Assembly (NCBI GenBank): GCA_019454985.1 | Contig: JACFNF010000002.1 | Coordinates: 62,001-126,000 of the forward strand | Length of the DNA: 64,000 bases | Source of the DNA: Bacteroidales bacterium | GTDB lineage: Bacteria; Bacteroidota; Bacteroidia; Bacteroidales; F082 | Reading direction: 5' to 3' | Shown: one piece after another, positions 13,123-17,435 of the stretch | Numbering within the stretch: position 1 is the stretch's first letter | Layout of the letters: each line of letters opens with the position of its first letter | Notes under the pieces: model-generated | What the model was told of the DNA's origin: nothing | Databases searched by the model: none | The model's input: the letters and a program-made list of their open reading frames with translations, nothing else | Program-made: the position numbers and the translations under genes

Positions 13123-13150
13123 TGCAACTATTTTTATGCACTGGACGTCT
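13123..13150 (+). promoter_or_regulatory. Candidate ECF-type promoter upstream of sigma gene
   Basis: TGCAAC at 13123-13128, a 17-bp spacer, then CGTCT at 13146-13150. This has the layout of ECF sigma -35/-10 elements (an AAC core followed by CGTC). It sits 38 bp before the sigma factor ATG, and the same TGCAAC-N17-CGTCT arrangement recurs at 15024-15051, suggesting autoregulation. Confidence 0.6.
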
Positions 13151-13188
13151 GTAAACATACTGAAGGGAGTTGGCTTTTTGAGCCCCTG

Positions 13189-13734
13189 ATGGACGAAAAA
13201 CAACTGGTGACAGCCTGCCGCAAAGGAGATCGTAAGGCACAAAAAATGCTTTACGATTTGTTTGCGCCCAAGATGTATGCCGTTTGTCTGCGTTATGCCA
13301 AAAACCAAAGTATGGCGCAGGACTTTCTTCAGGAAGGATTTATCAAGGTCTTTACCCACCTCGATAAATTTCGTTTCGAGGGCTCGCTTGAAGGTTGGGT
13401 AAGGCGTATTATTGTAAATGCTGCTTTGGAGAAACTGAGGAAAACAGATGTATTTAGAAACAGCACAGGTATGGAAGGGCTGTCAAATCTTGATTCGGGC
13501 GTAGTGCCAGCTTTAGACGAGATGCAGGCAGCCGACCTGATCCACCTGATCCAGCAATTACCTGTGGGGTTTCGAACGGTGTTCAATTTATATGCCATAG
13601 AAGGCTTTTCGCATCAGGAAATCGGTACGATGCTCGGTATCAGCGAGGGAACTTCTAAATCGCAGTATTCAAGAGCGCGGCAATGGTTGCAGCAGCGTTT
13701 GTCTCATCGAAAGAAAGAGGAAGGCAATGGATAA
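13189..13734 (+). CDS. ECF-type RNA polymerase sigma factor
   Basis: A 181-residue sigma-70 family protein of the extracytoplasmic-function type. Region 2 is visible at about 20-85 (core LRYAKN..MAQDFLQEGFIKVF and the FEGSLEGWVRRI segment). Region 4 is at about 122-172 with the HTH signature GFSHQEIGTMLGISEGTSKSQYSRAR. It directs RNA polymerase to a small set of promoters. The gene overlaps by 8 bp with the next gene, which encodes a membrane-anchored protein in the usual anti-sigma position. A matching ECF promoter upstream suggests positive autoregulation. Confidence 0.93.
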   Translation: MDEKQLVTACRKGDRKAQKMLYDLFAPKMYAVCLRYAKNQSMAQDFLQEGFIKVFTHLDKFRFEGSLEGWVRRIIVNAALEKLRKTDVFRNSTGMEGLSNLDSGVVPALDEMQAADLIHLIQQLPVGFRTVFNLYAIEGFSHQEIGTMLGISEGTSKSQYSRARQWLQQRLSHRKKEEGNG

Positions 13735-15016
13735 AAAAGATGAATTGAAAGAACTGTTTGCCAGAAATTTAACCGACTGGCAGCAACAACCGCCCACCCA
13801 GGTCTGGGATGCGGTGAATCAGCAGTTGATGTGGAAATCTCGCCGTCGTCTGGTTCTTTATTCTTTGTCGGCTGCGGCAATCCTTATCCTGATGATTATT
13901 CCCCTCGGCGTATGGATGTGGAAAGACAATGTCAATCCTAACCCTGATCTTGCCGAAACGATTGTAACAGAATTGCCTTCCGATCAAATAATTGCTGTTG
14001 GACAGAATGCCCCTTTGCCGGATGTGACAAAAAAGGCTCGTCAACAAAGCCTTGAACTTCAAAGCGACTTTCGTGTTCAGTCAACAAAACCAAAATCGAA
14101 TATCGGCTTGAACGAATATCTTGTCCTCACATCCGAAACTGAAAAAACCGAGGTAATACCTGTCAGTATTGCTGAAAATAGCATTGACGACAATGAGGAT
14201 GAAACACAAAAGGTTGAAGAAAAAGAAAACCTTGCCGAAAATCATGATATCAATGAAAGGCTTCAACGTGTTACCTTGGCTTCCCGCATACTTCAACAAA
14301 ACGATGATGGAATCCTGGAACAACAAAAATTCCACGATAAACAAGCAGCCGAACGGATGAATCTCATTCTTGCATACGGAAGCGTCCCGGGCGGTACAGT
14401 TTCGGCCAGCGAGTTGCTTTATGAGAATAGCAATGTGCGCTATCGCCCCGACACCTATCAGTCCGAAATGGCTTACGAAACCTCTTTTTACGAAGAAATT
14501 GAGCGGACTGATGTTCAGGCGCCTTTGAGCTTTGGATTGAAAATGAGCTATCGGGTCGGAAGGCGGATTTTCCTTGAGACCGGCCTCAGCTATACTTCTC
14601 TTGGTGTTGTGAGCAAGACAATTGACTTCGATGAAACATACAACAGATATTATCGCACCTTGCATTATTTGGGAATCCCATTTGGCATTAGATGGGAAGT
14701 GATTCGTACACAACCTTTCAAAGCTTATTTGATACAAACTGTGATGTTAGAGAAAGGGATAAGAGCTGCCAACCGTAAAAACCGATACGAACAGTTAGAA
14801 TTGGTTTCAAGTGAGTTGAGTTCTACCCGTATTCCCGGCTTTCAGCTCTCGACCCTCTCATCCGTTGGAGCTGATTTGGGTATTTATCAGAATTTTAGTG
14901 TGTTTGGCGAGGGTGGCATCCAGGTTTTTTACCTTAACAGCACACAGCCTTTTAATATGCGTTCGGCAAAGATGATGTGGCCGGTTTTCCAAACCGGAAT
15001 CAGAATGAATTTTTAA
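13727..15016 (+). CDS. Putative anti-sigma protein with C-terminal outer-membrane barrel
   Basis: A 429-residue protein translated in 8-bp overlap with the ECF sigma gene. The first ~40 residues are charged and soluble with the pattern F...L.DWQQQPPTQVWDAV, typical of short cytoplasmic segments of ECF-linked membrane proteins in Bacteroidota. One strong transmembrane helix follows (about 43-66). A long acidic, low-complexity linker (about 80-200) leads to a C-terminal region (about 255-429) rich in alternating aromatic/beta segments and ending in GIRMNF, as in small outer-membrane barrels. I infer that the N-terminus binds the sigma factor and the distal part sits in or near the outer membrane. 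The anti-sigma role is not proven by any recognised anti-sigma motif. Confidence 0.75.
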   Translation: MDKKDELKELFARNLTDWQQQPPTQVWDAVNQQLMWKSRRRLVLYSLSAAAILILMIIPLGVWMWKDNVNPNPDLAETIVTELPSDQIIAVGQNAPLPDVTKKARQQSLELQSDFRVQSTKPKSNIGLNEYLVLTSETEKTEVIPVSIAENSIDDNEDETQKVEEKENLAENHDINERLQRVTLASRILQQNDDGILEQQKFHDKQAAERMNLILAYGSVPGGTVSASELLYENSNVRYRPDTYQSEMAYETSFYEEIERTDVQAPLSFGLKMSYRVGRRIFLETGLSYTSLGVVSKTIDFDETYNRYYRTLHYLGIPFGIRWEVIRTQPFKAYLIQTVMLEKGIRAANRKNRYEQLELVSSELSSTRIPGFQLSTLSSVGADLGIYQNFSVFGEGGIQVFYLNSTQPFNMRSAKMMWPVFQTGIRMNF

Positions 15017-15023
15017 GACCAAA

Positions 15024-15051
15024 TGCAACGGTTTGTACTGTATGCGCGTCT
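15024..15051 (+). promoter_or_regulatory. Second candidate ECF-type promoter
   Basis: TGCAAC at 15024-15029, a 17-bp spacer and CGTCT at 15047-15051, identical in elements and spacing to the candidate promoter ahead of the sigma gene. It lies immediately after the putative anti-sigma stop codon and 22 bp before the LVIVD lipoprotein ATG. Confidence 0.6.
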
Positions 15052-15073
15052 TTGAGGCATATCAGTGCAAACC

Positions 15074-16372
15074 ATGAAAACCATTTTTAAAGTCTTCGTT
15101 GTTTTTTGCCTTTCTTTCACAGGCAGCTTTTTTATGAGTAGCTGTCGTGACAAGGTATTCGAACAAATTTCTTACGAGGCCAATGTGCCGGTTTATATGG
15201 ATTTTGCCACTTTCCGTGCGGCAGTCAAGCGCGAAGCACCACGAGAACTAATTCAGCCCGGAAAGATATATTATTACAATAATATATTGTTTATCAATGA
15301 AATACAGCAAGGCGTCCATGTGATTGACAACTCAAATCCTGCCTCGCCTGTCAATATTGCTTTCATCGAAATTCCAGGAAATATTGACATCGCCATCCGG
15401 GGCAATATCCTTTATGCCGATAGCTACATTGATTTGGTAGCCATTGATATCACCAATCCGCTACAACCGGTTGAGGTGAGCCGAATCGAAGGTGCGTTCC
15501 CTAAAGTACTCCCTGCCATGGAAGCAGCTTATCCTGTCTATGGTCTCGATTTTTCAAAAGGGATCGTCGTGGGTTGGGAGAAAAAAGTGGTAACGGAAAT
15601 GATTGAAAAGGACAGTTTTTCGCGACGCAACCAGATATGTTATGATTTTGTTGGTGCACCAAGTTTGGGCTCGTCAGAAGTTGGTCTCGTCGGTAGAGCA
15701 AATGGCACTGCCGGTTCAATGGCTAGATTTACCCTTATCGGCAATTATTTGTATGCCGCTCATAACACAGCACTGAAAGTGTTTGACCTGACAAGCGCGC
15801 CCGAAATGTCGCTTGGAGGTGAAGTTCAGCTTGAGCGCGTAGCCGAAACGATTTACCCTTTTGAGGGACGGCTTTTCTTAGGAACCACGACCGGAATGTT
15901 GGTGTATAGTCTCGAGCAGCCAACAACACCTAAGTTTGTATCCGTATTCGAGCACATTACCTCTTGCGACCCGGTCGTTGTTTCGGGTCAGTATGCCTAT
16001 GTTACCCTTCGCTCCGGAAATAACTGCAACAATTTGGTTAATCAATTGGATGTATTGGATATTTCATCTATTGAGCATCCTTTCCTAATGAAGTCGTACC
16101 CATTCTTCAATCCACATGGCCTGGGTGTTGACGGTTCTTTGCTCTTTGTCTGTGATGGTGATGCAGGGCTTAAAATTTTCGACAAGACCGACCCAATGAC
16201 AATTCACTTGCATCAGCTTGCCCATTTCGATGGAATCAACAGCTACGATGTAATCCCTCACGATGGCGTGCTCATGATGATTGGCTCCGACGGACTTTAT
16301 CAGTATGATTATACCGATGTGACTAATCTTAGATTGTTAAGTAAAATTCCGGTTGTAAAACCTCAGCCATAA
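15074..16372 (+). CDS. LVIVD-repeat lipoprotein
   Basis: A 432-residue exported lipoprotein. The N-terminus has a hydrophobic signal and a lipobox-like SFFMSSC, placing the lipidated Cys near residue 23. The remainder shows repeated units of the LVIVD type, with recurring blocks such as GVHVIDNSNPASPV and LVAIDITNPLQPVEV, predicted to fold as a beta-propeller-like scaffold. An in-frame GTG lies 9 bp upstream, but ATG at 15074 directly precedes the signal peptide and is preferred. Its own candidate ECF promoter suggests it is a target of the adjacent sigma factor. No catalytic motif is seen; the role is probably binding or envelope sensing. Confidence 0.85.
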   Translation: MKTIFKVFVVFCLSFTGSFFMSSCRDKVFEQISYEANVPVYMDFATFRAAVKREAPRELIQPGKIYYYNNILFINEIQQGVHVIDNSNPASPVNIAFIEIPGNIDIAIRGNILYADSYIDLVAIDITNPLQPVEVSRIEGAFPKVLPAMEAAYPVYGLDFSKGIVVGWEKKVVTEMIEKDSFSRRNQICYDFVGAPSLGSSEVGLVGRANGTAGSMARFTLIGNYLYAAHNTALKVFDLTSAPEMSLGGEVQLERVAETIYPFEGRLFLGTTTGMLVYSLEQPTTPKFVSVFEHITSCDPVVVSGQYAYVTLRSGNNCNNLVNQLDVLDISSIEHPFLMKSYPFFNPHGLGVDGSLLFVCDGDAGLKIFDKTDPMTIHLHQLAHFDGINSYDVIPHDGVLMMIGSDGLYQYDYTDVTNLRLLSKIPVVKPQP

Positions 16373-16423: not shown

Positions 16424-16452
16424 CTGCTGCCCCCGGAAACCGGGGGCAGCAG
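16424..16452. repeat. Perfect 13-bp GC-rich inverted repeat (hairpin)
   Basis: CTGCTGCCCCCGG at 16424-16436, an AAA loop, and the exact complementary arm at 16440-16452. No T-run follows on either strand, so it is not a textbook terminator, although its stability could attenuate or protect the upstream lipoprotein mRNA. It lies 52 bp after the LVIVD stop. Confidence 0.85.
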
Positions 16453-16471: not shown

Positions 16472-16663
16472 ATGAAACTCAGATTCAGGAAAAAAAATGC
16501 ACAAAAAACCGAAGCTGCTGAAAGCCCGTTGTGGCAGCTTTCGTCACTTCGTAAATTGGCCGGGAGCCAGCCACTTGCCTGGAACAACCGTCTTGGGAAA
16601 CAACATGGTTTGCGCAAACACCTGAGCAAGCTATGGAAAATTAATCAGGCTTCGCTTTGGTAA
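16472..16663 (+). CDS. Possible small basic protein
   Basis: An ATG-initiated frame of 63 codons, rich in Lys, Arg, Leu and Ser, without signal peptide, membrane segment or family resemblance. It begins 20 bp after the GC-rich hairpin and ends just before the frameshifted outer-membrane protein gene. It may be a genuine small protein of the ECF locus or a chance frame; I see nothing that decides this. Confidence 0.3.
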   Translation: MKLRFRKKNAQKTEAAESPLWQLSSLRKLAGSQPLAWNNRLGKQHGLRKHLSKLWKINQASLW

Positions 16664-16686
16664 CCAAACCGATAGCAGACGGCTGG

Positions 16687-17435
16687 ATGCTGAAAACATT
16701 ATGGCAACGCATATCGCTGACGATATGGGTGATGTTGTTTTTTGTCCTCGGTTTGCCTTTCGTTTCTTATGCCGTACCCGAAAAAGAACACTTTTCTGAA
16801 CGACAGTATAACTCTTTTATTCAGGATAAATTACGCTGTGATAATGATATGCAGGGCTGTTTTGACTTATTGACGGTTGAAACACAGATTCTGCAAAATC
16901 CAGACAATCTGGTTCACTCTCAAAAATCATCGGGGAAGGATATTACAACCTGAGCTCCTTGGCCTTGCTTTTTGGCGAAGGTCAACGGGGTTATATGCCT
17001 TTTCCTTCGCTCACAATGGTCAACGGCTATTGCTTTCAGCCGGGTCTTTTCACAGGCATTGGCCTTGGTTATGAATATCTCGATTGTAGCATGATGCCCA
17101 TCTTTGCCGATGTAAAATATATTCTTCCCGAGCGGCGCCACATCCCTTTTGTTTCGCTGAAACTTGGTGGAGCAGTTCCTTTAGGGTCGGACGAACTCTA
17201 TTCGGATTATGGTTTTGCTGAAAAGACAACTGTATATGGCGGCATACTCATCTCGCCTGAGTTTGGTGTGCTTTTTCCGCAAAAAGGAAAAAATGCCCTT
17301 TTGGTTAGTGTGGGCTATCATCATCAGGAGATTTCATACGAGAACTTTTCTAATCGTGGTCCCGAAAATCTGGGACAACGAACCTTTGTCAATTTCAACC
17401 GGATCAGCTTCCGTATTTCCTACCTTTTCAGATAG
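16687..17435 (+). pseudogene. Frameshifted outer-membrane beta-barrel protein gene
   Basis: Two adjacent frames together make one plausible protein. The first (ATG 16687; GTG 16657 also possible) supplies a signal peptide ending near FVSYA and runs to a stop at about 16951. The second frame is open from 16881 to 17435 and supplies GEGYYNLSSLALLFGEG and a barrel-like sequence ending in FRISYLF. Adding one A to the run of five A at 16922-16926 would join them. Either the gene is broken, or there is a homopolymer indel in the assembly, or ribosomes slip at AAA. The intact product would be a ~250-residue exported barrel of the PorT/OmpW-like kind, located downstream of the ECF locus. Confidence 0.7.

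Follow-up and report, generated by a model that had tools for sequence, protein, structure and literature searches.

Cell envelope signalling in the Bacteroidota offers close counterparts to the locus described here, in which a gene for an ECF sigma factor (SIG) is followed by one for a barrel-bearing protein (BAR) and then by one for an LVIVD-repeat lipoprotein (LVI). In the EcfO-Reo system of Bacteroides fragilis and Phocaeicola vulgatus, as predicted for SIG-BAR, an ECF gene precedes that of an anti-sigma factor whose single chain runs from the cytoplasm to an outer-membrane barrel, and the EcfO regulon, like that predicted for SIG, contains lipoproteins, namely NigD (PMC9308784, PMC13114119). 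Reo and the Dma proteins, with a layout like that of BAR, are reported to be the anti-sigma factors of the adjacent ECF genes (PMC9308784, PMC13088901, PMC13114119), Dma3, in which a sigma domain is fused, being the reported exception. The available portions of these reports name NigD proteins and a longer O-antigen as targets of EcfO-Reo, and NigD1, vesiculation and PULs as outputs of Das1-Dma1 and Das2-Dma2 in Bacteroides thetaiotaomicron, and in those portions an LVIVD propeller lipoprotein is mentioned for neither. The same portions agree with the view of the initial annotation that an ECF gene followed by a barrel protein is a known arrangement in this phylum.

The window, by which we mean the whole analysed stretch of 64,000 nucleotides, comes from a Bacteroidales genome of 3.03 Mb in 109 contigs, and all features given here lie on its forward strand. 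SIG (13189..13734, 181 aa) matches Sigma70_r2 (1.9e-14) and Sigma70_r4_2 (1.7e-14) in Pfam and scores above the cut-off for TIGR02937; as is characteristic of ECF factors, it is about 180 aa long and lacks region 3 while possessing sigma regions 2 and 4. BAR (13727..15016, 429 aa) overlaps it by 8 nt and carries a predicted C-terminal barrel, and LVI (15074..16372, 432 aa) follows after a gap of 57 nt. The motif TGCAAC-N17-CGTCT occurs twice, as had been noted from the sequence, each time intergenic. The first copy, P1 (13123-13150, TGCAACTATTTTTATGCACTGGACGTCT), comprises a -35 element TGCAAC at 13123-13128, a 17-nt spacer and a -10 element CGTCT at 13146-13150, and ends 38 nt upstream of the SIG ATG at 13189; the second, P2 (15024-15051, TGCAACGGTTTGTACTGTATGCGCGTCT), lies between the BAR stop at 15016 and the LVI ATG at 15074, 22 nt upstream of the latter. 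The two had been called identical, which holds for the 11 named bases and the 17-nt spacing and fails for the spacer sequences.

Taking sequence comparison, structural models and analogy together, we consider it highly probable that SIG is held by a BAR of the Reo/Dma type and reads TGCAAC-N16/17-C[AG]TCT at its own operon, at LVI and at unlinked targets. In such a system BAR, spanning the cytoplasm, inner membrane, periplasm and outer membrane as one chain, would keep SIG inactive until a change sensed at the outer membrane led it to set SIG free. Free SIG would then read the promoter before its own operon, yielding more SIG and more inhibitor, and would also switch on the adjacent propeller lipoprotein gene through P2, the unlinked target A and, in part of the genus, target B, so that the output of the regulon would be mainly exported or outer-membrane protein. 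Comparison supports the element as a promoter, the association of SIG with it and the domain layout of BAR; the sequestration of SIG, the outer-membrane signal, the expression of the regulon and the location of LVI are inferred.

The tie between the promoter element and SIG is apparent among relatives, the nearest named ones being Bacteroidales MAGs, part of them labelled Lentimicrobium. The order SIG-BAR-LVI-ORFb, where ORFb is the exported protein encoded after LVI, is preserved in 12 fetched relatives (L035-L046), with identities of 55-69% for LVI and 25-47% for BAR. TGCAAC-N16/17-C[AG]TC(T/A) stands before SIG in 12/12 of these and before LVI in 11/12, within intergenic DNA that has otherwise diverged. 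Scanning named genomes yielded 80 LVI loci, the majority from MAGs and several from the same genomes as the 12 relatives. The motif precedes LVI in 15 of the 17 loci with SIG-BAR directly upstream versus 1 of the 63 others (p 3e-13), and the spacers of 20 SIG/LVI promoter pairs fall into 5 N16/N16, 14 N17/N17 and 1 mixed (p 4e-4), both being Fisher p-values that overstate independence because the genomes are related. Before SIG it is found in all 17 of these loci when the TGCAGC variant is counted, and in L283 both promoters read TGCAGC with GCATCT. The agreement in spacer class, and the -35 variant carried by both L283 promoters, suggest that a single sigma factor reads the two sites. L046 and L212 have no motif ahead of LVI, and L253 has it without a linked SIG, in a genome that encodes a SIG homolog of 48% identity. 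In a different family of the order (L068, 4889-4940), an ORFb-like gene diverges from LVI, and either gene has a TGCAAC-N17-CATCT motif to itself.

Comparison of genomes also supports a wider regulon, with at least two members unlinked to SIG-BAR-LVI. When TGCAAC-N17-C[AG]TCT was listed in seven genomes of the genus and mapped against genes, it was found upstream of target A (contig C108), a secreted barrel-like protein of 280-286 aa, in 6/7. Across relatives, all 11 genomes with SIG have the target A motif and none of the 11 lacking SIG does; two more, G001 and G038, have it where the LVI locus is broken at a contig end, and G011 is ambiguous, its motif lying 102 nt from the start with TAnnTTTG closer. 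Target B (contig C14), a helical protein of about 205 aa with no Pfam match, has the motif in 5/11 genomes with SIG versus 0/18 without. TAnnTTTG is the published housekeeping -7 element (PMC7366714). It is present at target A in 0/12 cases with the ECF motif versus 10/12 without, and at target B in 0/5 versus 17/17; within the 110 nt examined at these two genes, the two elements never occur together. In genomes without SIG, the orthologs of both genes mostly have this box in place of the ECF motif. These alternations look like exchanges between housekeeping and ECF promoters, which would be hard to account for were the motif mere decoration. Target A and ORFb may share an origin, the sole sign of which is a weak N-terminal match (E 0.005). 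In two genomes of the genus (L077, L101) the motif also lies ahead of a TonB-dependent-receptor-like gene. Two different species, G008 and G007, share an identical 28-nt motif stretch (L075, L118), the L075 copy of which precedes a small lipoprotein gene; this is perhaps a recent transfer.

The most serious competitor to our reading is that the element is served by another ECF factor, or by several with a common consensus, with SIG as merely one target. TGCAAC/CRTC resembles general ECF promoters, which counts for this alternative, as do the other intergenic matches that precede unrelated lipoproteins and the presence in the genome of about a dozen region-4 sigma-like proteins, among them an ECF (L164; G000:C60, L315 3320-3883) that is 46% identical to SIG. 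That paralog, however, has neither a TGCAAC motif upstream nor a barrel neighbour and counts as an orphan within the broad group that includes SIG, whereas the motif at LVI and target A tracks the presence of SIG, and within a genome spacing and -35 variants change in concert at the promoters of SIG and LVI. We therefore regard control by a different sigma factor as improbable and retain SIG as the likely reader of the element.

The partner of SIG is most readily placed by gene order and predicted architecture. Its AlphaFold2 model has a helix at residues 6-15, a second at 24-66 whose later part would form the membrane helix, a disordered linker at 68-172 and an eight-stranded barrel at 258-429, the last with pLDDT mostly 85-96. 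The barrel is matched by OMP_b-brl_2 in Pfam (2.7e-7) and, in Foldseek, by the OmpA transmembrane domain (1bxw, E 5.3e-7); a PDB sequence search with BAR gave no match. BAR homologs were found in 31/149 related genomes, and a search for related loci with BAR as sole query returned no matches, the protein being too diverged. Profile searches matched BAR to no curated anti-sigma family and recognised the barrel alone, as might be expected if it were simply an outer-membrane protein co-regulated with SIG. We think this quite unlikely, given the 8-nt overlap of the two genes, the order SIG then BAR in each of the 20 loci fetched from relatives, a layout equal to that of the reported anti-sigma factors Reo and Dma, and the homology of its first 66 residues, membrane helix included, to Dma-like proteins encoded beside another clade of ECF factors (hhalign E 1.6e-14). 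SIG-BAR is thus probably a member of the known Bacteroidota kind in which an ECF factor is paired with a one-chain anti-sigma factor.

Within the window there is no third match to TGCAAC-N17-CGTCT on either strand, and the chance expectation is 0.02 per window (100 dinucleotide shuffles, none with two). TGCAAC-N17-C[AG]TCT has 6 matches in the whole genome, and 4 of them (P1, P2 and those at targets A and B) lie about 20-45 nt before a start codon in the correct orientation, a placement expected for about 2.7% of sites if an estimated ~2700 genes are allotted 60 nt each (binomial 7e-6). The motif is thus not common at random intergenic sites, which had been named as the outcome that would count against the annotated regulon; the autoregulated ECF regulon proposed there, whose partner protein bears a barrel and whose target is a lipoprotein, gains support from the comparative linkage of motif and SIG. 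The L002 and C109 matches were discarded as targets, both being inside other genes. Raw genome-wide counts were likewise abandoned as proof: in four genomes the same-coding-phase spacings N14, N17 and N20 give 29, 36 and 22 matches, barely above a codon-phase background for N17, so the signal resides in position and conservation rather than in number. The pattern was set beforehand, and base counts from its matches do not form an unbiased matrix. That P1 and P2 arose as a pair by chance, or by duplication of a spacer sequence, has a negligible probability despite these near-equal counts and an identity confined to 11 bases, since 0.02 matches are expected in the window and about 20 loci keep motifs at the same positions although their spacers have diverged. 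Sequence comparison thus supports the view that the element behaves as a conserved ECF promoter.

LVI itself matches LVIVD (PF08309) at 4.5e-11 and 42.4 bits, against a Pfam cut-off of 20.2, and is modelled by AlphaFold2 as a beta-propeller (pLDDT 79). Its lipobox cysteine, Cys24, follows a hydrophobic segment and is invariant in an alignment of 20 homologs, which identifies it as a lipoprotein. A subfamily of LVIVD paralogs consists of two adjacent genes (L069 4168-5642; L070 3257-4554; L071, L072, L073, L074), with a signal peptide or lipobox on either half, apparently one propeller assembled from two separately exported proteins. Programmed frameshifting in the two-frame homologs was ruled out, the second half having its own signal peptide or lipobox. 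Downstream of LVI lie a G+C-rich hairpin (16424..16452), conserved with some compensatory changes, and a small ORF of 63 aa (16472..16663, MKLRFRKKNAQK...NQASLW) that is kept in relatives and has no Pfam match; hairpin and then ORF are both kept in L035-L040. ORFb (16657..17435), probably an outer-membrane protein, is intact in relatives at 250-280 aa and is here split over two frames near 16930-16950, beside short A and G runs, so that the copy in the window is either a pseudogene or an assembly error.

LVI is also tied to a second set of ECF genes. Of the 80 LVI loci, 31 have an ECF gene 1.4-2.1 kb downstream of LVI, and in the tree these ECF factors form a single clade (100/98) separate from the SIG lineage. 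An ORF after the downstream ECF gene was found in 22/31 of the loci and mostly encodes a Dma-like protein of 400-515 aa whose N-terminal part holds a membrane helix. Part of these loci have another promoter: TGCAGC-N17-CGTA precedes LVI in 7/31 of them, 0/17 SIG-BAR loci and 3/32 others. This second ECF/Dma-like lineage, with its different gene order, is apparently new. Because two lineages, SIG-BAR-LVI-ORFb and LVI-(ORFb)-ECF'-Dma-like', join the same lipoprotein family, LVI and the barrel-like ORFb could be standing partners of Dma-type signalling beyond single targets, a pair that may feed back on the anti-sigma barrel or serve as its outer-membrane input; we offer this idea tentatively and hold it to be possible rather than likely.

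A more distant parallel is the sigma-E/RseA system of Escherichia coli, in which an envelope sigma factor has in its regulon the eight-bladed propeller lipoprotein BamB and the anti-sigma factor RseA ends in the periplasm. The likeness lies in a propeller lipoprotein within the regulon, BamB being among the structural matches of LVI, and the difference in that RseA stops in the periplasm whereas BAR is predicted to reach the outer membrane. The matches of LVI also include designed eight-bladed propellers, BtuG2 and many others, and because unrelated propellers match as well, as they would for any propeller, the resemblance to BamB is structural only and its equivalence to LVI a lead at most. 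A promoter consensus for EcfO was reportedly published by Ndamukong in 2013, and TGCAAC-N16/17-C[AG]TCT, provided it differs from that one, is apparently new. The suggestion that no system with an LVIVD lipoprotein target is known to have been described agrees with the titles and abstracts of the surveyed papers that use the term LVIVD, in which no such sigma/LVIVD system is apparent. The SIG-BAR-LVI locus offers a legible promoter consensus, a small set of predicted regulon members and naturally occurring swaps between housekeeping and ECF promoters, so that direct targets become predictable from sequence, and it singles out a conserved propeller lipoprotein as a recurrent companion of ECF/anti-sigma switches. 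The type of switch is thus one known from Bacteroides, and its propeller-lipoprotein output and its set of targets are what appear to be new.
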